A stretch of 19,944 nt of DNA from the NCBI GenBank assembly GCA_913051905.1, contig CAJXBY010000032.1:1-19944 (forward strand), given 5' to 3'. This document shows positions 7,268 to 19,111 of this stretch, in pieces. Numbering within the stretch: position 1 is the stretch's first letter; every line of letters begins with the position of its first letter. A model generated the notes under the pieces. It made no database searches. It saw only the letters and a program-made list of their open reading frames with translations, and was not told the origin of the DNA. The position numbers and the translations under genes were made by a program. The stretch comes from an uncultured Gammaproteobacteria bacterium (GTDB taxonomy: Bacteria > Pseudomonadota > Gammaproteobacteria > Arenicellales > UBA868).

Positions 7268-9046
7268 TCAGTTGACCTGTTGTTGCTGCATGTCAGCGGG
7301 GTCGATTCCGGCCACCTTTACCGGGGTCTTCATGGCGTCGCGGCGGAAGGGTTCTCCGAGTTCCTGATTCAGCACAACCTCAATAAAGGTTGTGATGTTC
7401 TCATTCATCTGCTCTTTAATGGCGGTTCGAAGGCTCTCGGTGAGTTCTTTCATGTCTCGTACCTTAATGCCCTTCACACCGCAGGCTTCTGCGATCTGTG
7501 CGTACTCCACTCCAACGTTCAATTCGGTGCCGACGAAATTGTCGTCAAACCAGAGTGTGGTATTGCGTTTTTCGGCGCCCCACTGGTAATTACGGAAAAC
7601 CACCATGGTGATCGCCGGCCATTCATTACGTCCGCAGGCCGTCATTTCATTCATCGAGATGCCAAAAGCCCCGTCGCCGGCAAAACCAACGACCGGCACA
7701 TTCGGACAGCCGATTTTTGCCCCGAGTATTGATGGAAAACCATAACCGCAGGGGCCGAAAAGTCCGGGCGCGAGATATTTTCGGCCTTGTTCGAAAGTCG
7801 GGTAGGCATTGCCGATAGCACAGTTGTTGCCGATATCAGATGAGATGATGGCTTCTTTGGGAAGCGCCGCGATGATGGCGCGCCATGCCATTCGCGGGGA
7901 CATGCAGTTGGGTTCGCGGTCCCGAGAACGCTGGTTCCAGGTAGTTCCGGGGTCATCGTCTTCGTGATCCATGGTGACCAGCTCTTTCTGCCAGTCTGAT
8001 TTTGATTTTGAGATCAGTTCCAAGCGAGATTCGCGGCCTTTATCGCCGGCGTCCTCGGTGAGATTCTGCAGGATCTGTTCGGCAACCCGACGGGCGTCAC
8101 CCTGAATGGCAACATCAACTTTCTTGGTCAGTCCGATACGGTCTGGATTGATGTCCACCTGAATGATACGGGCCTTCGACGGCCAGTAATCGATGCCGTA
8201 GCACGGTAGGGTCGAGAAGGGATTAAGCCGCGTTCCCAGTGCCAGCACCACATCAGCTCTGGAGATCAGTTCCATGGCAGCCTTGGATCCGTTATACCCC
8301 AGCGGTCCGGCAAAAAGTCGGTGCGATCCGATAAATGCGTCATTGTGTTGATAATTGCAACATACCGGCGAGTCGATTTTTTCCGCCAGTGCCCGCACCG
8401 AATCGATCGCACCGCTAAGGACCACCCCGGCACCATTGAGAATCACGGGAAAACTGGCATCAGAGAGAAGATTTGCGGCTTCTAGGATGGCCTTTCCCCC
8501 GCCAGGTGAACGCTCCATGCGGATGATCTGTGGTAACTCGATGTCGATCACCTGGGTCCAGTAGTCCCGCGGTACGTTGATCTGGGCCGGTGCGGATTCC
8601 CGCCGCGCTTTCTCGATCACTCGGTTCAGGACCTCGGTGATACGGGTGGGGTCGCGTACCTCCTCCTGGTAACAGACCATGTTTTCGAATGCGGCCATTT
8701 GTTTGACTTCCTGAAAGCCGCCCTGTTCTATGGTCTTGTTGGCTGCCTGGGGTGTCACTAGGAGCAGCGGTGAGTGGTTCCAGTACGCAGTGGCGATGGG
8801 GGTGACAAAATTTGTGATGCCGGGACCGTTTTGGGCGATGGCCATGCACATTTTTCCGGTCGCCCGCGTATATCCATCCGCACTCATCCCCGCATTGCAT
8901 TCGTGGGCACAGTCCCAGAACTTGATTCCTGCGGCGGGAAACAGATCCGAGACCGGCATCATTGCTGAACCTATGATGCCGAATGCATGCTCGATGCCAT
9001 GCATCTGCAGGACTTTCACAAACGCTTCTTCAGTGGTCATTTTCAT
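7268..9046 (-). CDS. xsc: Sulfoacetaldehyde acetyltransferase (thiamine diphosphate enzyme)
   Basis: Converts sulfoacetaldehyde plus phosphate to acetyl phosphate and sulfite, the C-S bond-breaking step of taurine and isethionate breakdown. The 592-residue product has the family length and opening, MKMTTEEAFVKVLQMHGIE. The conserved thiamine diphosphate glutamate is E49 in WDCAHECNAGMSADGYTRA. The diphosphate-binding motif begins with GDGAFG at about residue 457 and continues to NYQWGAEKRNTT. The overall pattern is that of Xsc and not acetolactate synthase. It is read after ald with a 73-base gap, and a fair ribosome-binding site (TAGGGGAT) precedes the ATG. Phosphate acetyltransferase and a sulfite exporter or oxidase, which would handle the products, are not in this window. 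Confidence 0.95.
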   Translation of the reverse strand: MKMTTEEAFVKVLQMHGIEHAFGIIGSAMMPVSDLFPAAGIKFWDCAHECNAGMSADGYTRATGKMCMAIAQNGPGITNFVTPIATAYWNHSPLLLVTPQAANKTIEQGGFQEVKQMAAFENMVCYQEEVRDPTRITEVLNRVIEKARRESAPAQINVPRDYWTQVIDIELPQIIRMERSPGGGKAILEAANLLSDASFPVILNGAGVVLSGAIDSVRALAEKIDSPVCCNYQHNDAFIGSHRLFAGPLGYNGSKAAMELISRADVVLALGTRLNPFSTLPCYGIDYWPSKARIIQVDINPDRIGLTKKVDVAIQGDARRVAEQILQNLTEDAGDKGRESRLELISKSKSDWQKELVTMDHEDDDPGTTWNQRSRDREPNCMSPRMAWRAIIAALPKEAIISSDIGNNCAIGNAYPTFEQGRKYLAPGLFGPCGYGFPSILGAKIGCPNVPVVGFAGDGAFGISMNEMTACGRNEWPAITMVVFRNYQWGAEKRNTTLWFDDNFVGTELNVGVEYAQIAEACGVKGIKVRDMKELTESLRTAIKEQMNENITTFIEVVLNQELGEPFRRDAMKTPVKVAGIDPADMQQQQVN

Positions 9047-9119: not shown

Positions 9120-10235
9120 TCAGGCATTGAGCGCGGCCAGGGGTTCAGTAAATTCGTAGCCGAGATCGTCTGCCACTTCCCTGCAGGTGATCTTGCCACC
9201 GTGGACATTGAGTCCGTTTCTGAGGTGTTCGTCATCCACCAGCGCCTGTCGGTAGCCTTTGTTGGCGAGAGTCATGACGTGTGGGAGGGTAACGTTGTTC
9301 AGCGCGTAGGTCGATGTCCGGGGAACGCCGCCCGGCATATTAGCGACGCAGTAATGCACCACGTCGTCGACCACATAGGTGGGATCCGCGTGGGTGGTAG
9401 CCCGCGAGGTCTCACAGCAGCCGCCCTGGTCAATGGCCACATCGACGATGACAGAACCGGGCTTCATGGCACTGACCATATCGGATGTCACAAGCTTGGG
9501 CGCCGCTGCTCCTGGAATCAGTACCCCGCCGATGACCAGATCAGCTTCGAGGACGTGGCGTTCTATGGCATCTCGCGTGGAGAACACCGAGTTGGTGGAG
9601 CGCCCGAACTGTTGCCAGTGAGCCTCTATTACCTCCGGGCTCCGGTCTATGACCCAGACGTCGGCTCCCATGCCGACTGCAATATGCGTGGCGTGAGTGC
9701 CCACCATACCGGCTCCAAGAATGACCACTTTTGCGGGGTCGACACCGGGGACTCCGCCGAGCAGCATACCGAGCCCGCCGTGCGGATGTTCCAGGCAGTA
9801 GGCACCGGCTTGAATCGACATGCGGCCCGCGACTTTGGACATTGGCGCCAGCAATGGCAGTCCGCCGGCCGGTGAGGTGACGGTTTCATAAGCGATGCAT
9901 ATGGCGCCGCTTTTGACGAGATCTGAAGTTTGCTCTGGATCGGGCGCCAGATGAAGGTAGGTAAACAGAATCTGGCCTTCGCGCAGCATCGCACGCTCTG
10001 GTGCCTGTGGTTCCTTGACCTTTACGATCATGTCTGCGCTAAAAGCCTCGGCAGGGTCATTTGTGATCGTCGCACCTGCTGCGCGGTAATCTTCATCGGT
10101 TGCCCCGATGCCTTCACCGGCGAGGGTCTGAACGATCACCCGGTGGCCCTGTGCGGCTACTTCCCGGACACTGGCCGGTGCGAGTCCGACCCGGTATTCA
10201 TGATTTTTTATCTCTTTAGGCACACCGATCAGCAT
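9120..10235 (-). CDS. ald: Alanine dehydrogenase
   Basis: NAD-dependent oxidation of L-alanine to pyruvate and ammonium. Beside a taurine aminotransferase its role is to regenerate the pyruvate acceptor and release the nitrogen. I start at the ATG at 10233-10235, which gives 371 residues, the standard length. A GAGGA ribosome-binding site sits 5 bases ahead. A TTG 15 bases upstream would use up that site. Substrate and catalytic residues are present: R15 in [11 protein letters not shown]74 in VKVKEP and H95 in YLHLAPDP. The Rossmann motif is GAGMVG within [19 protein letters not shown]. It is the first gene of the ald-xsc pair and diverges from the aminotransferase gene across about 50-90 bases. 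Confidence 0.95.
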
Positions 10236-10282
10236 GATTGTCCTCGTCAAATTGGCACGGTTGAGTCAGGGTTCTTTTGGTG

Positions 10283-11632
10283 ATGAACTATAGCAGTCCG
10301 AAACCAGGGAATTGTCCAGGCATGAAATACGATCTTGAATTTCTTGAAAACTACTGGATGCCATTTACTTCAAACCGCGATTTTAAGGCCGATCCTAGGC
10401 TGGTTGTAAGAGGTGAAGGGGTCTACATGTACAGTCAGGAGGGCGAGCGCATACTCGATGGTTCGTCTGGACTGTTCTGCTGTGCCGCCGGCCACAGTCG
10501 ACCTGAGATTGCCGAGGCGGTCTATGCCCAGTTGAAGGAAGCGGCCTATGTGCCACCGTTCCAACTGAGCCAGCCTCTGGCATTTGAACTTGCGCGCCGC
10601 GTATCACAGTTGACGCCCGATGGCCTGGACCACATCTTTTTCGTTAATTCTGGCTCGGAGGCGGTTGATACCGCTATGAAAGTCGCCTATGCATACCACT
10701 ATGCACGGGGCGAAGGGCAGCGTCAGCGGTTCGTGTCGCGTGAACGGGCGTACCACGGGGTCAACATGGCCGGGGTGTCGCTGAGCGGTATGATCAAGAA
10801 CCGGCAGGTGTTTGGTCCGGGGATTCCAGGCGTGGTGCACATGCGGCACACCTGGCTGCCGGAGAACCGTTTTGTCAAAGGTCAGCCAGAAACTGGAATC
10901 GAACTGGCCGACGATCTCGAGCGTATCGCCATGAATTACGGTCCCGATACCATCGCAGCCTGTGTCGTCGAGCCAGTCGCCGGCTCGACCGGTTGTCTGG
11001 TACCGCCAGCCGGTTACCTCGAACGGTTACGAGAGATCTGCGATTGTTACGGAATTCTGCTGATTTTCGATGAAGTGATTTGTGGTTTCGGCCGACTGGG
11101 GGCACCGTTTGGTGCGCAGGCGTTCGGAGTGACGCCCGATGTGATGACCATGGCCAAGGCGCTCACTAACGCTGCGCAACCCATGGGTGCCGTCGCTGTC
11201 AGCGACAGGGTCCACAGTACCATCATCGAAGCGGCGCCCGATAATGCTGTCGAATTTCCCCACGGCTATACTTATTCGGCGCACCCGGCAGCCTGTGCAG
11301 CGGGGCTTGCCACTCTGGACATCTTTGAGAACGAGAAACTGGTTGAACGGGCCTCTGATCTTGGGCCGTATTTCCTGGGTCAGGTATTTGCGTTAAGTGA
11401 TCTTTCCATCATCACTGACATTCGGGGCTACGGCCTTTTTGCGGGATTCGATATTGCCCCGGACGGTGGGGCGGGCATACGCGGCCTGGATTTCCAGAAA
11501 AGACTGTATCGCAACGGCCTACATGTGAAGATGACCGGAGATGCAGGGCTGCTCGCACCACCGCTGATTTCAGAGCACCGTCATGTGGACCAGATGTGCG
11601 AGATTCTCAGACAGACACTCGCGGAATACTGA
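10283..11632 (+). CDS. tpa: Omega-amino-acid:pyruvate aminotransferase, probable taurine:pyruvate aminotransferase
   Basis: A class III, PLP-dependent aminotransferase. By context it would move the amino group of taurine to pyruvate, giving sulfoacetaldehyde for Xsc and alanine for Ald. Visible features are YWMPFTSNRDF near the N-terminus, VNSGSEAVDTAMK in the cofactor phosphate region, FDEVICGFGRLG with the PLP-binding Asp, and the Schiff-base lysine in TMAKALTNAAQPMG (codon 11156-11158). The sequence resembles beta-alanine:pyruvate (omega-amino acid) aminotransferases at least as much as the described Tpa enzymes. The taurine call therefore depends on xsc and ald next door, and beta-alanine or hypotaurine are possible additional substrates. 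The start is uncertain: ATG 10283 (449 residues) or ATG 10322 (436 residues, MKYDLEFLENYW), neither with a strong ribosome-binding site. Confidence 0.85.
   Translation: MNYSSPKPGNCPGMKYDLEFLENYWMPFTSNRDFKADPRLVVRGEGVYMYSQEGERILDGSSGLFCCAAGHSRPEIAEAVYAQLKEAAYVPPFQLSQPLAFELARRVSQLTPDGLDHIFFVNSGSEAVDTAMKVAYAYHYARGEGQRQRFVSRERAYHGVNMAGVSLSGMIKNRQVFGPGIPGVVHMRHTWLPENRFVKGQPETGIELADDLERIAMNYGPDTIAACVVEPVAGSTGCLVPPAGYLERLREICDCYGILLIFDEVICGFGRLGAPFGAQAFGVTPDVMTMAKALTNAAQPMGAVAVSDRVHSTIIEAAPDNAVEFPHGYTYSAHPAACAAGLATLDIFENEKLVERASDLGPYFLGQVFALSDLSIITDIRGYGLFAGFDIAPDGGAGIRGLDFQKRLYRNGLHVKMTGDAGLLAPPLISEHRHVDQMCEILRQTLAEY
10287..10318 (-). promoter_or_regulatory. Weak candidate promoter for ald-xsc
   Basis: On the minus strand TATAGT (5/6 to the -10 consensus, bases 10287-10292) follows TGGACA (5/6 to -35, bases 10313-10318), but the 20-base spacer is longer than ideal. 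It would start transcription about 45 bases before the ald ATG. The site lies in the space between the two possible starts of the divergent aminotransferase gene. If real, it favours the later start at 10322. Confidence 0.22.
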
Positions 11633-11789: not shown

Positions 11790-12974
11790 ATGAGTAGACG
11801 CACACAATCCGGCGGGTTGAACCAGAGTCGCCGGCGTTTCGTCAAGAGCACAGCGGTCGCCACCACCGCAGCTGCGGTGGGTCCTTGGGTGATCCGCTCC
11901 GAGGTTTTGGCCGCCTCGGGCCAGGTCAATGTCCTGATGTGGTCGGACTACCTGCCGCCGGGATTCCTTAAGGCCTTCACTGACAATACCGGTATCGCTG
12001 TCAACTACACGGGGATCGGCTCCAATGAGGAGATTCTCAATAAAATGAAAGCGACAAAGGGCAAGGGTTTCGATATCTGCAGTCCGACCAACATGCGTTC
12101 ACTGCAATGGGAGCCGCTTGGTTTACTGGCGCCCTTTGACTACGGCCGGATCAAGAATCTCGGTAACGTGAACCCGGCGATGCTCGTCGTGGGTGACCAG
12201 GAGTGGAATTTTGCTGGTAAAGGCTCGCATTGGCTTCCGCACATTTGGGGTACTGAAGGAGTCGCCTGGCGGACTGACAAGTGGACGCCACCGCGAGCTG
12301 GTGAAGTGCCCAGTTACGGCGACATCTGGCAGCCCGACATGGAAGGCAAGACCATGATGCGGCCACATTCCGGCATGCTGGGTGCGGGTCTATATCTGGA
12401 GGCCAATGGAACACTGGCGCCGGGCGCGATGCGGGCTGCCTACAGCGACGAGGCGACCATGCGTAAGACTTGGGCCGTTGTCACCGACTTCTGCATCAAG
12501 CACAAAAGTCAAGTGAAACTGTTCTGGAATGATGCCGACACGCAGAAAAACGGCCTGATGAACCAGGGTGTGGTGGTCGGCCAGACCTGGGATGGCCCAC
12601 CGATAACCCTGATGCAGAACGGTGATCCGGTCCAGTACCGCGCTCCAGCGGAAGGCTCCCTGGCCTGGGTCGACGGCATGTCCCTGTCGACGGCAGCGGA
12701 AGATATCGATGCGGTCTACGCATTTATCGATTACTGCTTCGCGCCGGAGCCGGCCGGTAAATCGATCGACGGCGGTGGCGACAGCAACTGGGGCGGCCAT
12801 GGCTACAACTCTGCCGTCCTCGGCGCTGATCGCTATGCCAGTGGAGCATACGGCAAGATGTTCGGCACGGTTTATCCAGGAGATTCCTTGGCAAACCTCT
12901 GGCCGTGGCCCAAGGAGCCGCAGTGGTATGCCGACGTTCGGACCGAGTACCGCAACAAGTTCGTAAACGCCTGA
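11790..12974 (+). CDS. ABC importer substrate-binding protein, PotD/YdcS type, Tat-exported
   Basis: Periplasmic binding protein of 394 residues for the ABC importer encoded just downstream. The N-terminus has an exact twin-arginine motif, SRRRFVK at residues 13-19, then a hydrophobic Ala-rich stretch and a likely cleavage near VLAAS (about residue 41). It should therefore be exported folded. The mature part opens VNVLMWSDYLPPGFLKAF, the pattern of the spermidine/putrescine-binding (PotD/PotF/YdcS) family. The ligand cannot be read from sequence. The neighbouring aminotransferase, ald and xsc point to taurine or a related aminosulfonate, but a polyamine or another amino compound remains possible. 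A perfect AGGAGG ribosome-binding site suggests strong translation. A hairpin after the stop may keep its mRNA above the level of the membrane components. Confidence 0.88.
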   Translation: MSRRTQSGGLNQSRRRFVKSTAVATTAAAVGPWVIRSEVLAASGQVNVLMWSDYLPPGFLKAFTDNTGIAVNYTGIGSNEEILNKMKATKGKGFDICSPTNMRSLQWEPLGLLAPFDYGRIKNLGNVNPAMLVVGDQEWNFAGKGSHWLPHIWGTEGVAWRTDKWTPPRAGEVPSYGDIWQPDMEGKTMMRPHSGMLGAGLYLEANGTLAPGAMRAAYSDEATMRKTWAVVTDFCIKHKSQVKLFWNDADTQKNGLMNQGVVVGQTWDGPPITLMQNGDPVQYRAPAEGSLAWVDGMSLSTAAEDIDAVYAFIDYCFAPEPAGKSIDGGGDSNWGGHGYNSAVLGADRYASGAYGKMFGTVYPGDSLANLWPWPKEPQWYADVRTEYRNKFVNA

Positions 12975-13124: not shown

Positions 13125-14219
13125 ATGAGTGCTGACGTACAATTGGAGGACATTGGTGTCCGTTTCGGAGACTTTGTCGCCGTGCGCGACGCCAATGTGA
13201 CGGTCAAGGGGGGCGAGTTTTTCAGTTTCCTGGGCCCGTCCGGTTGTGGCAAGACAACCCTGTTGCGCACCATATCCGGTTTCCAGACACCTAGCACGGG
13301 CAGGGTACTGATCGACGGACGAGACATGGCCGGTACCGGCCCCAATCAGCGTCCGACGGCGTTGATTTTTCAGAACTTGGCCCTGTTCCCCCTGATGACG
13401 GTCTGGGAAAACATCTCCTTTGCCCTGGAGGTCAAAGGTGTCGGCAAGCGCGAGCGGCGCAGACGTGCTGACGAGTTGCTTGAACTGGTCGCTCTACCTG
13501 GCCAAGCCGAAAAGATGGTCGATGAGCTTTCCGGTGGCCAGAAGCAGAGGGTGGCCGTTGCCCGGGCGCTTTGTGCCGAGCCGGAGGTTCTGCTCCTTGA
13601 TGAACCGTTGTCCGCACTGGATCTGAAGCTGCGCCAGCGGATGCGAACGGAACTGCGTGCAATACAGCAGCGTGCCGGGATCACGTTTATCTATATCACG
13701 CATGACCAGGGTGAGGCTTTGACCATGTCTGACCGGGTGGCAGTGATGCGTCAGGGTGTGATCGAGCAGGTGGCCGACGGCACCACGGTTTACGATCATC
13801 CGGAAACAGCCTTTGTCGCTTCTTTTGTCGGCGAAAACAATGCGTTTAGCGGGCGGGTAGTCGATAGACAGGAGGATGTGGTTTCAGTAGAGACCTCAAC
13901 GGGCGTTTTCCGATGTCGGACCTCGGGGTCCGAGTCACTGTCAACGGGTGACGATGCGCTCGTTTTTGTCCGTCCGGAGTCATTGACCTTCAGCGATGTC
14001 GGGCGCTCTGATAATCTGCTCAAGGTCCGTCTCACAAACCAGGAATTTGAAGGTCATTTCTGGCACTTGGTCCTGAAAACAACGGACGGTAGCCCGATCC
14101 GTATGTCGGTGGTCAATGACGCCACCTCGCGGGCCCACCAGATCGACAGCGAGGTCACCATCGGGTTTGATATCGCCGGGGCGATCGCCCTGCCGAGCGG
14201 CGCGCTGGCTGCTGAATGA
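13125..14219 (+). CDS. ABC importer ATP-binding protein, PotA type
   Basis: Cytoplasmic ATPase that powers the importer. All nucleotide-binding elements are intact in its 364 residues: Walker A GPSGCGKT (37-44), Q-loop glutamine Q83 in IFQNLALFP, signature LSGGQ (135-139), Walker B LLLDEP with D159 and E160, and switch histidine H193 in ITHDQGEAL. The C-terminal part, about residues 240-364, forms the TOBE-like regulatory domain typical of the polyamine and CUT1-type families, which TauB-type ATPases lack. The start ATG follows an AGGGGTGGG ribosome-binding site. It sits 150 bases after the binding-protein gene and 19 bases before the first permease. Confidence 0.93.
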   Translation: MSADVQLEDIGVRFGDFVAVRDANVTVKGGEFFSFLGPSGCGKTTLLRTISGFQTPSTGRVLIDGRDMAGTGPNQRPTALIFQNLALFPLMTVWENISFALEVKGVGKRERRRRADELLELVALPGQAEKMVDELSGGQKQRVAVARALCAEPEVLLLDEPLSALDLKLRQRMRTELRAIQQRAGITFIYITHDQGEALTMSDRVAVMRQGVIEQVADGTTVYDHPETAFVASFVGENNAFSGRVVDRQEDVVSVETSTGVFRCRTSGSESLSTGDDALVFVRPESLTFSDVGRSDNLLKVRLTNQEFEGHFWHLVLKTTDGSPIRMSVVNDATSRAHQIDSEVTIGFDIAGAIALPSGALAAE

Positions 14220-14238: not shown

Positions 14239-15171
14239 ATGTCCGACTGGTTTCAGAAATTTTTCAGGCGAAACGGCTTTGGACTTTCGCTATTCATGCT
14301 GGCCGTTGTGTTTTTCTGGATCGTGGTCATGATCGTTCTGCCACAGCTGTTGATGCTGGACTTCTCATTCCGTTTCAACTGGCACCACATGGCCCCGGCC
14401 AAGATGGGTGGGCCAGAGGATGTTTACACTCTGACGCATTACAAGTTCCTGATTTATGGTAGTCCCAACAACCCTGACCCATTTAACATCGTCGATGTCA
14501 CGGTGTTTTTCCGGACGATTCTGGCCGCGATCTGTATCACCGGATTTGATCTCGCACTATGTTATCCCATTGCCTATTACCTGGCCCAGGTCGCAAAAGG
14601 CGGTAAAGCCAGGTTCTTTGTCCTGGCACTAATCGTCCCGTTCTGGGTCAACGAGATTCTGCGGGCATTTGCCTTCCGCATACTGTTCGGGGAGGAAGGC
14701 ACTATAAATGCGTTGCTGCTTGCAACGGACCTGCTCGACCAGCCGATCGACTTTGTCCGGGAAAACGTCGCACTTTATGCGGGGTTGGGTTATGCCTATG
14801 TTCTTTTGATGATTTTTCCGATTTATAACGCTGTGGAAAGCCTGGACCGCAACCAGATCGAGGCCGCACGTGACCTCGGTGCGGGTTGGCCTCGAATCCA
14901 CTGGCGGGTGGTCATTCCGTTTGCCAAGCCGGGCATTACCTCGGGCTGCACCATGGTATTCATGCTGACTGCCGGTGCACTGGCGCTGCCGCAGATCATT
15001 GGTGGCCCCAGCAGTCTGTGGTTTACACAGATCATCTACCAGTGGTTCAACACCGGAAGCAACTGGCCAAGAGGCTCGGCATATGCCATCGTGCTGCTCA
15101 TCTCCTGTGTCTTGCTCGTGCTGCTGATGATGCGAGTGTTCAAAGTCCGTATCGGTGAGATAGGCAGATGA
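14239..15171 (+). CDS. ABC importer permease 1, PotB type
   Basis: First membrane subunit of the importer, 310 residues from ATG 14239, which follows an AAGGGGCGGG ribosome-binding site. A longer reading from 14116 overlaps the end of the ATPase gene and adds 41 unlikely residues, so I rejected it. The product opens MSDWFQKFFRRNGFGLS and has about six membrane helices, the first near residues 15-37. The EAA coupling loop reads IEAARDLGAGWPRIHWRVV and contacts the ATPase. A periplasmic loop of about 50 residues after helix 1 is usual for PotB-like proteins. Its stop overlaps the start of the next permease (ATGA), a sign of coupled translation. Confidence 0.92.
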   Translation: MSDWFQKFFRRNGFGLSLFMLAVVFFWIVVMIVLPQLLMLDFSFRFNWHHMAPAKMGGPEDVYTLTHYKFLIYGSPNNPDPFNIVDVTVFFRTILAAICITGFDLALCYPIAYYLAQVAKGGKARFFVLALIVPFWVNEILRAFAFRILFGEEGTINALLLATDLLDQPIDFVRENVALYAGLGYAYVLLMIFPIYNAVESLDRNQIEAARDLGAGWPRIHWRVVIPFAKPGITSGCTMVFMLTAGALALPQIIGGPSSLWFTQIIYQWFNTGSNWPRGSAYAIVLLISCVLLVLLMMRVFKVRIGEIGR

Positions 15172-16460
15172 CGGCACAGACTGTTTTAAGGCTTTCGGTA
15201 GGCTTCTATATCCTGCTGTTCTTCGGCTATCTGTTTGGGCCGCTTGTGATCATGTCGATCACAGCTTTCAATAGTTCCACGTTTCCGGCGGTGTCTCCGT
15301 GGGAATGTCTGTCTGGAGAGTGGTTTCGCGTGCTGGTTGAAGACGACAAGATCATGACTGGCCTGCGCAACAGTCTGCTCCTCGGTGCCGGGGTGGTCAT
15401 GGTGGCAGTCCCTATTGGACTTGCCGGCGCTTTGCTCCTGACTCAGTTGCGACATCGGGTGCGGTCGTTGATCTACATCATTACGATTTCACCCATCCTG
15501 GTCCCTGGTGTGGTTCTAGGAATATCAACCCTGATTTTTTGGGAGCGCATCGACCGCGTGGTGCTGGACACCGACTTTTTCTACGATGGATTTTTTCTCA
15601 CGATCATTGGCCAGTCTACTTTTATCTCGGCCTACACTATGTTGATTTTTATCGCTCGCCTGCAGCGATTCGATCCGCTGCTGGAAGAGGCTGCTCTGGA
15701 TCTGGGCGCGACCCATATGCAGGCCTTCCGCAAGATTCTGCTGCCGTTTCTGAAACCGGCAATCGGGTCTGCGGCAGTTCTGGCATTTCTGGCCTCATTC
15801 GAGAACTACAACACGACCGTTTTTACGATCGTGTCGGAGAGCACACTGACCACAGTTCTAGCCAGCAAGGTACGGTACGGCATCAACCCGTCAATCAGCT
15901 CGTTAGCGGTCATCATTATCAGTCTGACCGTGCTGTTAGCAGTGATTCATGAGTTATTCAAACGCCGGGAGAAAAAGCTTCAAGCGCACCGCGAATCTTA
16001 CGCACTTGGCACAGCTGTACCAGCGCGTCGTCAACGCCCGATGATGGTGCCAGTGACGGCTGTGGTAGCGGTCGTTTTTGTCTCTCTGCTCGGTACCAGC
16101 TGGGTCGCCCGGGGTTACAGTGTGAATGAATGCAAGGTCCGGGTGGTCGAGGAGAAAAGGAAGCGGACCGAGCAACTGAGCGAGCAGCGCATCGCCGAAT
16201 CCCGTGCCAGGCGGGCTGCCGAGCAGTCCAAAGAATCCAGCGATTCCGCGCTCAAAGCCAACGCTGAAGGGCGCCAGTATCAGAGCATCTTTGCTCCGAG
16301 CAATCTTGCTGGTCAGGTCGATTCCGATAGTGAATCTGATCAGGAAAAGGGTACCCAGAGCGCTGTCGAGGCGAACAAAGAAGGGCGCCAGTATCAGAGC
16401 ATCTTTTCTCCCAGCAATCTTAAGAATCAGGTGGATTCCAGCAAGGACTCGAACCAGTAA
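15168..16460 (+). CDS. ABC importer permease 2, PotC type, with an unusual repeat-bearing C-terminal tail
   Basis: Second membrane subunit. Residues 1-265 are an ordinary PotC-type permease with six helices and the EAA loop EEAALDLGATHMQAFRKILL (173-192). PotC proteins normally end there, at about 260-280 residues, but this one continues to 430. The extra part holds a seventh hydrophobic helix (about 291-313, MMVPVTAVVAVVFVSLLGT), a highly charged and probably coiled-coil stretch (about 322-356), and two 32-residue repeats (361-392 and 399-430), each with the core EGRQYQSIF followed by PSNL and QVDS. Since the permease core should end in the cytoplasm, the added helix would place the tail in the periplasm, where it could meet the binding protein or the cell wall. 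The topology is inferred. The gene overlaps permease 1 by 4 bases. Confidence 0.9.
   Translation: MTAQTVLRLSVGFYILLFFGYLFGPLVIMSITAFNSSTFPAVSPWECLSGEWFRVLVEDDKIMTGLRNSLLLGAGVVMVAVPIGLAGALLLTQLRHRVRSLIYIITISPILVPGVVLGISTLIFWERIDRVVLDTDFFYDGFFLTIIGQSTFISAYTMLIFIARLQRFDPLLEEAALDLGATHMQAFRKILLPFLKPAIGSAAVLAFLASFENYNTTVFTIVSESTLTTVLASKVRYGINPSISSLAVIIISLTVLLAVIHELFKRREKKLQAHRESYALGTAVPARRQRPMMVPVTAVVAVVFVSLLGTSWVARGYSVNECKVRVVEEKRKRTEQLSEQRIAESRARRAAEQSKESSDSALKANAEGRQYQSIFAPSNLAGQVDSDSESDQEKGTQSAVEANKEGRQYQSIFSPSNLKNQVDSSKDSNQ
16257..16439 (+). repeat. Two-copy in-frame repeat inside the permease 2 tail
   Basis: Two 69-base units (16257-16325 and 16371-16439) repeat with a period of 114 bases, that is 38 codons. 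By hand I count 57 of 69 identical positions, including an unbroken 27-base identical block covering codons for EGRQYQSIF. Most differences change codons for small or charged residues and leave the motif EGRQYQSIF-x-PSNL-xx-QVDS intact. The close DNA identity suggests a fairly recent tandem duplication, or gene conversion, under selection for the motif. Confidence 0.9.
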
Positions 16461-16483: not shown

Positions 16484-17578
16484 GTGAATACTGACCACCG
16501 TCTAGCGTCCCATGTCGTAAACACCATGATTGAAACCACCTGTATCGGCGCCTACCCCAAGCCCGTTTATGTCGAGCTTCCGGACTGGTTCAAAAACCCG
16601 GAAGGTCTTGACACCGCCGACACGACGCTGTTGTGGCAGGCGGCACTGGCATCAATGGGCGGAGATGCCGAGGCAATCATTTCTCGAGGCGTAGAGGAAG
16701 TCATCCAGGACCAGGTGGCGGCCGGCATCGACGTGCCTACCGACGGTGAGGTGCCCCGCGAGAACTACATTCACTATCACTGCCGACATATCAAGGGTAT
16801 TGATTTCGGCACACTGACCGAAGTGTCGCTGCGAAACGGTGCGTATTCAGCGAGACTACCCACAGTTACCGGCCCCGTCAGTGCCTGTGATGACTTTCTG
16901 GTCCATGACTGGAAGAGAGCACAGCGATGTACTGAGCGGCCCGTTAAAATGACCTTGCCGGGTCCGATGACGATCAGCGACACGACCGCGGATGCCTATT
17001 ACGGTGACCCGGCCCGGCTGGGGGCAGACCTAGCCGACGCCCTGAACCAGGAGGTCAGGGCTTTGGCCGACTCTGGATGCCCCAACATTCAGATCGACGA
17101 GCCGCTATTTGCGCGCAAACCCGACGCGGCACTTGAATATGGGTTTGAAAATCTGGAGCGGGCGTTTCATGGTTGCCCTAAAACGGTCACGCGAACCGTC
17201 CATATGTGCTGCGGCTACCCGGACCGGCTGGATAATCCCGACTATCCCAAAGCGGACCGGCAGGCCTATTTCGAGCTGGCAGAATCCATCGAGTACTCGT
17301 CGATTATGGCGATCTCGTTCGAAGACGCGCATCGTCATAACGACCTCAAGTTGCTGGAGCATTTTGCCCGGACCAGTGTAATTCTGGGCGTGGTCGCGAT
17401 AGCTAGGAGTGAGATTGAGTCATCCGATGAAATCGCCGCACGTCTCGAAGCTGCCTTACAGCATATCGATCGTGATCGATTGGTCGCCGCGCCCGACTGC
17501 GGTCTGGGTCTGCTCGGCCGCGAACTCGCCATCACCAAGCTGTCGAACCTGTGTGAAGCCGCATCGCGGGTTGACTAA
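16484..17578 (+). CDS. MetE-like zinc methyltransferase core protein, substrate unknown
   Basis: A protein of 364 residues (GTG start) that matches the C-terminal catalytic barrel of cobalamin-independent methionine synthase and lacks the N-terminal half of true MetE (about 750 residues). The zinc ligands of the family are all present: H240-x-C242 in VHMCCGYPD, E280 in ISFEDA and C339 in APDCGLG. QIDEPLF (203-209) and TDGEVPRE (87-94) are further family segments. Relatives include core methionine synthases and epoxyalkane:coenzyme M transferase, all of which move an alkyl group to a thiol. It starts 23 bases after permease 2 and belongs to the same run, so its substrate may be linked to the imported compound. 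An ATG at 16526 (MIETTCIGAYPKP) is the other possible start, but it has no ribosome-binding site, whereas AGGCGG precedes the GTG. Confidence 0.85.
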   Translation: MNTDHRLASHVVNTMIETTCIGAYPKPVYVELPDWFKNPEGLDTADTTLLWQAALASMGGDAEAIISRGVEEVIQDQVAAGIDVPTDGEVPRENYIHYHCRHIKGIDFGTLTEVSLRNGAYSARLPTVTGPVSACDDFLVHDWKRAQRCTERPVKMTLPGPMTISDTTADAYYGDPARLGADLADALNQEVRALADSGCPNIQIDEPLFARKPDAALEYGFENLERAFHGCPKTVTRTVHMCCGYPDRLDNPDYPKADRQAYFELAESIEYSSIMAISFEDAHRHNDLKLLEHFARTSVILGVVAIARSEIESSDEIAARLEAALQHIDRDRLVAAPDCGLGLLGRELAITKLSNLCEAASRVD

Positions 17579-17993
17579 AACCGTTGGGCGCTGCCTTTCG
17601 GTTCTGCTGGTCACAATGGTGGCCGGAATTACTGCCTGTAACGACCCTGACAACATCGCTGTTCAGACCGAAGATGCTGCAGAGATCCCGTCCAAGACGC
17701 AACAGCCAACTGTAGAAACCGGATCGGTCCTGCCCTGGCATCTGGAGTTGAGCCTTGAGATCAGGCACACAGATACCGATCAACTCGCGACCGGTTCGAA
17801 TCCGGTTTCCGGTGCATCCGATAATGCACTGCTCGAGCGTATACAGCGCGTGAGGGGCGGTGACCTTGACGAGATTCACCAACGTCGTTTCCTACGGGTG
17901 CTGGTGACGTACAGCCGGACCAATTTCTTCTTTGATCGGGGGGCTCGAAGGGTTATGAGTATGAACAATTGGAGGCGTACGAGAAATTCCTGA
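17571..17993 (+). pseudogene. mltF: N-terminal part of a frameshifted MltF-type lytic transglycosylase
   Basis: This frame carries the beginning of the gene that continues in a different frame at 17969. From the TTG at 17571, which overlaps the preceding stop, it encodes a lipoprotein signal: positively charged start, hydrophobic LSVLLVTMVAG, then a lipobox ITAC. A GTG at 17553 is an alternative start. A low-complexity linker follows, and then FLRVLVTYSRTNFFFDRG, the conserved opening of the MltF substrate-binding-like domain. After that the frame runs into unrelated residues and stops at 17993. Adding one G in the six-G run 17938-17943 (or in the GGG at 17950-17952) restores the expected GYEYEQLEAYEKFLN. 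The segment therefore belongs to the next entry and is not a gene in its own right. Confidence 0.8.
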
Positions 17994-19111
17994 ACCAGGG
18001 GGTCCAAAGGCGTGAAAACCGGGTCAAGCTGGTCTTCATTCCGGTGCCATTCGACCAGTTGCTCGAACGCCTGGCCTCAGGTCAGGGCGACATCGCGGTA
18101 GCAGGGTTGACCATCACCTCGGCTCGACAGAAGTCGGTTGCCTTTACTGACCCTTACTTGAAGGATGTGACCGAAGTGGTGGTCGGTCGACCGGGCCTGG
18201 GGGAGTTGCCCGATCTGGCATCCCTGGCCGGCCGCCAGGTCTTTGTCCGCCGCGGCTCAAGTTATGTTGATCATCTCGAAACCGTGAGCCACCGGCTTGA
18301 GAGCCTCGGCTATTCAGCGATCAAAATCCACCAGGCCGACAGCAGGCTCGCGACCGAAGATATTCTCGAACTGGTCAACTCTGGGGCTTTCGACCTGACA
18401 GTTGCCGACAGTCACATCGCGAAGATCTGGGCAGAAGTATTTCCGGCACTCAAGGTATACGAACATCTGAAAATCAATGAAGGGGGGAGAATTGCCTGGG
18501 CTATCCGCAAGGACAGCCCGAATCTTGCCGAACACCTTAACCGGTTCATCGACGAAAACAAGAAAGGCTCACTGCTCGGCAATATTCTGTTTACCCGGTA
18601 TTACAAGACCAACCGCTGGATCACTAATCCACTGTCTGGCGCGGACCAGGAGCGGTTGCAGCAACTGAAAGCCCTGTTTGAACGTTATGGCCGGATGTAC
18701 GGCATCGACTGGCTCAAACTGGCTGCCCAGGCCTACCAAGAATCACAGCTTGATCAGAGCGTGCGCAGTCCTGCAGGTGCCATTGGGATAATGCAGTTGC
18801 TGCCCAGCACTGCTTCTGGGCAGCCGATCAATGTTCACAACATCGAGCAACTAGAGAACAACATACATGCGGGCGCAAAGTATATGCACCACCTGCGTAC
18901 CAGCTATTTTAATGACACTGCGATTTCCGTAGCGGACCAGGTTGATTTCGCCTGGGCTGCGTATAACGCGGGCCCTGCTCGCATCAGAAAGCTGCGCAGC
19001 GTTGCTGCCGGTCGGGGATTCGACCCGAACCGGTGGTTCGGCCATGTAGAGGTTTTTGCTGCTGAGAAAATCGGCCGGGAGACGGTCGACTATTGTGAGA
19101 AACATCAATAA
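17969..19111 (+). CDS. mltF: MltF-type membrane-bound lytic transglycosylase, main part after the frameshift
   Basis: MltF-type enzymes cleave the glycan strands of peptidoglycan from a lipid anchor and carry a regulatory domain resembling amino-acid-binding proteins. Here the binding-like domain (about residues 1-205 of this frame, with LASGQGDIAVAGLTIT) is followed by the transglycosylase domain. The latter has the catalytic glutamate in AYQESQLD (codon 18740-18742), then SPAGAIGIMQLLPSTA and AAYNAGPARI. The first codons of this frame (TTG 17969) lie inside a conserved segment, so it is not a natural start. The true N-terminus is in the preceding entry, a different frame. If the deletion is real, no anchored enzyme would be made. 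If it is a sequencing slip, the gene is intact from 17571 or 17553. The 71 bases after the stop contain only a weak GGGC-TTT-GCCC hairpin (19168-19178). Confidence 0.85.
   Translation: MEAYEKFLNQGVQRRENRVKLVFIPVPFDQLLERLASGQGDIAVAGLTITSARQKSVAFTDPYLKDVTEVVVGRPGLGELPDLASLAGRQVFVRRGSSYVDHLETVSHRLESLGYSAIKIHQADSRLATEDILELVNSGAFDLTVADSHIAKIWAEVFPALKVYEHLKINEGGRIAWAIRKDSPNLAEHLNRFIDENKKGSLLGNILFTRYYKTNRWITNPLSGADQERLQQLKALFERYGRMYGIDWLKLAAQAYQESQLDQSVRSPAGAIGIMQLLPSTASGQPINVHNIEQLENNIHAGAKYMHHLRTSYFNDTAISVADQVDFAWAAYNAGPARIRKLRSVAAGRGFDPNRWFGHVEVFAAEKIGRETVDYCEKHQ

Follow-up and report, generated by a model that had tools for sequence, protein, structure and literature searches.

The window analysed here, i.e., the whole stretch of 19,944 nucleotides, carries the four genes of a PotABCD-type ABC importer among genes for sulfoacetaldehyde acetyltransferase (Xsc) and other enzymes, in the order Xsc, alanine dehydrogenase, aminotransferase, substrate-binding protein (SBP), ATPase, PermB, PermC and MetE-like methyltransferase, with the first two on the minus strand (Table 1). 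The class III aminotransferase, by inference, is a taurine aminotransferase. Positions 17969-19111 of the window encode an MltF-like protein with an SBP_bac_3 and a lytic transglycosylase domain.

Table 1. Genes and permease features in the window
Feature	Position	Strand	Basis
Sulfoacetaldehyde acetyltransferase Xsc	7268..9046	-	above NCBIfam cut-off
Alanine dehydrogenase	9120..10250	-	above NCBIfam cut-off
Class III aminotransferase	10277..11632	+	above NCBIfam cut-off of 'omega-aminotransferase AptA'
Substrate-binding protein (PotD-like), Tat signal	11790..12974	+	
ATPase subunit (PotA-like)	13125..14219	+	
Partner permease (PotB-like; PermB), start set at ATG 14239	14239..15171	+	
PotC-like ABC importer permease (PermC) with predicted C-terminal arm, 430 aa	15168..16460	+	ORF, Pfam, NCBIfam, AlphaFold2
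Six-helix permease core, residues 1-266; same end point as E. coli PotC	15168..15965	+	
Codon of Cys47, predicted periplasmic loop 1, tied to tail presence	15306..15308	+	
Predicted seventh membrane helix, residues ~291-316	16038..16115	+	hydrophobicity, AlphaFold2
Mixed-charge long helix, residues 319-358	16122..16241	+	AlphaFold2
Codon of Cys322, tail base, just after seventh helix	16131..16133	+	
Motif copy 1, EGRQYQSIFAPSNLAGQVDS, residues 367-386	16266..16325	+	
Motif copy 2, EGRQYQSIFSPSNLKNQVDS, residues 405-424	16380..16439	+	
MetE-like methyltransferase, catalytic domain only, after permease	16484..17578	+	

A preliminary description of this locus had proposed that a PotC-like core ends near residue 265 of PermC and that the gene continues in frame for about 165 residues, and this was confirmed, as ORF 15168-16460 runs uninterrupted through 430 codons, from the core into the tail without a stop codon. 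Pfam BPD_transp_1 (PF00528) matches residues 81-269 (51.7 bits versus a cut-off of 26.4), which identifies a type I ABC importer permease, while the residues outside 81-269 did not match any Pfam family. Residues 173-193 (EEAALDLGATHMQAFRKILLP), mostly invariant in our alignment, were assigned to the cytoplasmic EAA loop, which we take to be the motif for contact with the ATPase. The best NCBIfam match of the permease is PotC (residues 11-269), at 115.1 bits against a cut-off of 326 for the PotC equivalog NF007047. Two further features depart from PotC, namely the approximately 165 extra residues, including a seventh membrane helix (TM7), where PotC has six helices and nothing after TM6, and Gly114, invariant in 70 rows, at the position aligned with PotC Asp108; we caution against labelling tailed permeases as plain PotC in annotation. 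No Pfam SBP family matched the permease chain at E 0.001, the single matching NCBIfam fusion model covers the permease part only (residues 13-270), and the repeats of the tail are without a match among the Pfam and NCBIfam models.

The added membrane helix of the preliminary description is supported by hydrophobicity and by structure prediction, since 19-residue hydrophobic windows span residues 289 to 317 and AlphaFold2 places a helix at 295-316. The long helix that follows was modelled with a mean pLDDT per ten residues of 85-92 for residues 321-350 and 75 for 351-360, and the repeats were modelled at low confidence (pLDDT 43-55; mean pLDDT 72 and pTM 0.56 for the whole model). A predicted model of a Pelagibacteraceae relative shows helices at 316-337 and 343-368 (mean pLDDT 66.5, pTM 0.55), and here, too, pLDDT is low over the motif regions. 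The tail motif is indeed duplicated, with EGRQYQSIFxPSNLxxQVDS present twice, but the repeat unit is not the 32 residues initially proposed; rather, the two copies share a motif of 20 residues with a period of 38 residues. At the DNA level, this corresponds to two 100 nt copies that are 74% identical and start 114 nt (38 codons) apart. When the tail is compared with itself without gaps, the best 20-residue match contains 17 identities, a value reached by 0 of 1000 shuffles (shuffle maximum, 9). Across relatives, the general motif is [YF]xx[IV]FxxxxL, usually in one to three copies.

The two DNA copies, as well as a comparison of homologue P0002 with the window, give the repeats the look of tandem duplications, and the linkers are poorly conserved, as could be expected if the tail were neutral, a generic stretch of low complexity or the product of an assembly fusion; conservation of the motifs themselves argues against this. 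Of 7997 candidates scored in a protein search, 4438 matched; among the best 120 of these 4438 homologues plus the window (n=121), 98 carry two motif copies, 20 carry three, two carry one and one carries none, and the ends of the low-copy rows (P0085, P0101 and P0102) appear cut. C47, C322, K323, Y371, F375, N379, L380 and Q383 are invariant in 20 diverse rows, and in an alignment of 70 rows F375 and L380 never vary, with C47, C322 and F413 each conserved in more than 90%. Motif start-to-start spacing ranges from 25 to 62 residues among the commonest 20 spacings. In a set of 202 sequences, from which six named rows had been removed beforehand, instances grouped by pattern rather than by taxonomy form three motif dialects, YQxIFxPxNLxxQV (307 instances), FGxVFxPxxL (63) and YxDIFGDPxLFxDF (36), and the search pattern finds two copies per protein in 136, three in 32, one in 30, four in two and none in two. 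Since the aromatic, aliphatic, Phe/Trp and Leu/Ile positions are set by the search pattern itself, evidence comes from the free positions only: Pro comes next in 96% of the 307 and 95% of the 63 instances of the first two dialects, and Asp is found in 36 of 36 instances of the third. Given this conservation of free positions and of F375 and L380, a tree in which tailed rows can form one clade (see below) and the presence of the tail in many separate assemblies, we regard a neutral or artefactual tail as scarcely credible.

That the tail might result from an assembly fusion, a concern raised in the preliminary description, was thus rejected, with the tail present in 203 of the 245 distinct relatives compared. 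A scan of species genomes yielded at least 561 relatives; among the best 80 loci, which were kept, 44 encode a permease of more than 360 residues, and these 44 belong to Gammaproteobacteria (Arenicellales, Granulosicoccaceae), Roseobacters (Roseovarius, Ruegeria, Phaeobacter, Leisingera, Litoreibacter and others), SAR116, Pelagibacteraceae and a few other Alphaproteobacteria. The remaining loci of the best 80 have shorter, mostly tailless permeases and come mostly from other Alphaproteobacteria. The same predicted arm design recurs in ocean bacteria, including SAR11 relatives. Tails of the Pelagibacteraceae/SAR116 type comprise approximately 90-110 residues counted from just before TM7 (136 in L034). 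Two Roseobacter-type tails (L011 and L024) have an extra motif-like GVFDPDE within the charged-helix region, and P0103 (735 aa) has PermB and PermC in one chain, which represents either a fusion or a frame error on a single contig.

With regard to the history of the tail, a core tree of 86 rows (85 labelled) needs one change of state for the tail, with a support of 87. In a 121-row tree, the free search needs two changes, but likelihood is higher for the tree that keeps all tailed rows in one group (p-AU 0.8). As these core trees are quick trees with long branches, we put forward a single origin of the tail only as the simplest reading of the sequences.

Genome searches with a tail-only profile found one match each in 17 of 17 genomes known to carry the tail, and the motif, which the preliminary description suggested searching for in other proteins, thus does not represent a generic repeat of unrelated permeases; in many of 53 genomes from the family of a Pelagibacteraceae genome, the tailed type of approximately 402 aa is accompanied by tailless PotC-like permeases of approximately 271 and 291 aa. 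Tail matches were found in 31 of these 53 genomes, in 25 of 60 genomes from the order of an Arenicellales genome, in 6 of 120 from the family of a Phaeobacter genome and in 7 of 299 from the phylum of the latter (completeness not stated for any of these sets); two of the seven phylum-level matches (E 0.006-0.009) were without a permease. L148 and L149, also among the seven, encode tailed permeases with drifted motifs, and the search pattern finds no motif in L149. Nine of the 25 positive genomes in the Arenicellales-order search have two matches, with seven of the second matches adjoining the first on the same contig; those in G118 and G122 lie on different contigs, where the frames have 33 and 30 residues, and in one of them (L140, 1609 bases) no permease core was seen. 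Among the 53 Pelagibacteraceae genomes, the permeases of approximately 271 and 291 aa have PotC-model scores far above those of the tailed type, and the 271-aa type has Gly at the Cys47 position in all six permeases readable from 10 loci. A SAR11 PotABCD has been described, as indicated by the available part of the source (PMC8437039); with this limit, an identity of the tailed importer with that system is not supported, as the same genomes often hold the better-scoring PotC-like permeases of approximately 271 and 291 aa.

The tail-only search gave 149 matches, of which 120 were examined, and all 120 match tailed permeases, with at most 25 unmatched N-terminal residues in 108 and more in 12. 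These 12 have unlike N-terminal sequences and are mostly on short contigs; we read them as chimaeric contigs rather than as evidence for a stand-alone or shared module, a reading checked for P0197 and P0224 only. On these two short contigs, an FxsA-like start is joined to the tail at a similar stretch; since FxsA-like frames (mostly 148-163 aa) and tail frames (mostly 400-408 aa) are found at separate places in the 53 Pelagibacteraceae genomes, P0197 and P0224 were taken as chimaeras. The remaining ten matches may include a rare true fusion.

Six core helices plus a seventh would place the tail in the periplasm, as the preliminary description had predicted, and two observations support this topology. 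First, the net charge per residue is 0.12 before TM7 and 0.02 after it, and is higher before TM7 in 94.6% of 202 rows. Second, a cysteine just after TM7 (Cys322) occurs jointly with Cys47. The available part of a study on PotC (PMC11414716) describes a subunit with six membrane helices. Of its three periplasmic loops, the third connects TM5 with TM6, which puts loop 1, the site of Cys47, between TM1 and TM2. In the comparison of 245 distinct permeases, four without N-terminus were set aside; both cysteines are present in 199 of the 203 tailed permeases, neither in three and Cys47 only in one (P0080, which lacks a short segment at the site of the second cysteine), while 35 tailless relatives have neither. 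Cys47 is present without a visible tail in three rows, two of which end early (L069, P0102) and one of which has a broken frame (L132). It could be argued that TM7 is un- or half-inserted and that the motifs act on a cytoplasmic partner, as the stretch after TM7 is rich in Lys/Arg as well as in Glu; however, the charge bias, the co-occurrence of Cys322 with a loop-1 cysteine and the helix at the place of TM7 in the models of two far relatives make a cytoplasmic tail very improbable.

The joint gain of the two cysteines coincides with the tail, and the three tailed rows with neither cysteine (L020, L031 and L133) are mutual nearest kin and therefore represent about one joint loss. The evidence for the pairing hence amounts to about one gain and one loss, each of both cysteines together, and a sign test has two to three independent pairs, too few for significance. 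Group-specific cysteines are also found in other subunits, i.e., at SBP column 235 (33 of 34 tailed versus 0 of 28 tailless systems) and at ATPase column 150 (26 of 41 tailed versus 1 of 31 tailless), suggesting that descent alone can yield such patterns. A disulphide is favoured nevertheless, because the cysteines were lost jointly and fit the topology; the tail is thus probably periplasmic and stapled by a disulphide, a reading with few independent events beneath it. SBP Cys235 was rejected as a partner of the arm since its distribution differs from that of the permease pair (L031 has Cys235 without the pair, and L010 shows the reverse). PermB cysteine columns 111, 240 and 293 are occupied in tailless systems as well.

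A MetE-like match lies near the importer in 18 of the 44 tailed loci, some of which are cut short, and is on the opposite strand in L044. Xsc matches were found in the tailed loci L007 (83% identity) and L044 (Pelagibacteraceae, 75%), and matches at 45%, perhaps to a related enzyme, in L003, L005, L006 and L008. An association with xsc, implied in the preliminary description by reference to permeases beside this gene, does not hold as a general rule; no xsc match was found in the Roseobacter tailed loci, and a match is present in each of the tailless systems L045 and L053. For the relatives of the window, pathway knowledge leads us to infer taurine or a related sulfonate as the cargo. In L044, with xsc and alanine dehydrogenase upstream, an agmatinase-type gene (L044:9212-10183) directly follows the tailed permease, and our guess for the cargo there is a guanidino form of taurine. 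The available part of PMC11414716 reports that PotC Asp108 contacts spermidine, and Gly at the aligned position of the window permease disfavours, to that extent, a polyamine as cargo.

We selected 20 long tailed loci (5 Gammaproteobacterial, 10 Roseobacter and 5 SAR-type) and compared every ORF that encodes 100 residues or more. Exactly four families, SBP, ATPase, PermB and PermC, were present in 50% or more of the loci from every group, and each of the four was found in 20 of 20. As the families common to all groups are only those of the importer, a partner of the tail inside the importer is the simplest assumption. A Tat signal was found by pattern in the SBPs of 33 of 35 tailed and 26 of 29 tailless systems and no lipobox was seen by pattern in either, suggesting that the SBPs are probably soluble in both; the presence of Tat SBPs in tailless systems also means that a soluble SBP alone does not call for an arm.

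The preliminary description had suggested that the tail may tether the binding protein, dock on the wall or an outer-membrane partner, or act as a ligand sensor. We tentatively propose, at somewhat less than an even chance, that the tail serves as a periplasmic arm of a PotABCD-type importer, with multivalent motifs that catch the soluble, Tat-exported SBP of the same operon. The evidence counted towards such an arm includes the motif copies, the single-clade tree, F375 and L380, the cysteine pair, the charge bias and the shared operon. The proposed mechanism starts from an architecture that the sequences themselves show, with a core, a seventh hydrophobic helix, a further helix and, as a rule, one to four short motifs, kept across Gammaproteobacteria, Roseobacters, SAR116 and Pelagibacteraceae. 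The extra helix would put the C-terminus in the periplasm, and a Cys322-Cys47 disulphide, supported by the cysteine patterns, would fix the base of the arm beside the pore mouth. The charged helix would represent a strut, and the flexible [YF]xx[IV]FxxxxL motifs would bind the cognate SBP weakly and several at once, which may raise the local SBP concentration or help docking; short motifs would thereby do the job of the fused binding domains in OpuA or GlnPQ. The cargo delivered in relatives of the window would be taurine or a related sulfonate.

Alternatively, the motifs may bind another component of the envelope, such as an outer-membrane protein, a lipoprotein or peptidoglycan, and thus fix the position of the importer in the cell envelope or gather importers into clusters. 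A flexible tail that bears one to four motifs suits docking, and a partner encoded elsewhere would explain why no further gene family is common to the three groups; a ubiquitous partner encoded away from the locus may indeed exist. However, a general dock would be expected on other importers, while the tail is found on one permease only (one match in each of 17 genomes), and the Pelagibacteraceae/SAR116-type tails, at approximately 90-110 residues, would appear short for spanning the periplasm; we consider such a dock rather unlikely. That the tail instead folds back on the PermB and PermC loops and regulates the importer, for instance as an inhibitory or gating arm perhaps redox-controlled through Cys47-Cys322, is in line with a cysteine pair that would link the base of the tail with the chain's own loop 1, near the gate, and with the finding that only the importer's own genes are common to all groups. 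Motifs that vary in number and spacing are hard to reconcile with a fixed intramolecular site, though. The low pLDDT of the motif regions in both models also speaks against such folding back, and self-regulation of this type appears unlikely. For the preferred arm that catches the SBP, a fuller account, in which a disulphide-stapled arm recruits freely diffusing SBP through repeated short linear motifs, arose once and represents a free-to-fused intermediate in a marine ABC importer clade of the same four groups, is possible, and we hold it with more doubt than assent.

For bacteria of the oligotrophic ocean, it is an active question how soluble SBPs reach importers that are few in number within a crowded periplasm. 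A conserved arm whose motifs can be counted, present on one of a cell's several PotC-type importers, provides a natural experiment. The literature searched, in the parts available, holds no description of a periplasmic arm or tail of this kind. E. coli PotC of the PotD-PotABC system (PDB 8y5f, 8y5i) has 264 aa and stops after TM6, without TM7 or an arm; it has Gly at the position aligned with Cys47 of the window permease, in addition to Asp108 aligned with Gly114. The PotCD-type fusion NF043073 ('permease/substrate-binding protein') resembles the window permease in that a PotC-type permease is followed by a long C-terminal extension, and the window core scores 73.6 bits against its permease part (cut-off, 1250). 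In this fusion, which we take to be of mycoplasma origin, the extension is, by the model name, a whole binding protein, whereas the window tail consists of a helix and short motifs. The periplasmic loop P2 of MalF is likewise an addition on one permease that touches the binding protein; unlike a C-terminal arm after an added helix, it is a folded loop domain between helices. OpuA and GlnPQ, as portrayed in the available parts of the sources, share the functional idea that a covalent extension keeps the binding domain at the pore, but theirs are folded binding domains, whereas the importer of the window combines predicted disordered motifs with a separate SBP gene. The closest precedents of the tailed permease are thus permeases with a fused binding domain, i.e., the PotCD-type fusion, OpuA and GlnPQ.
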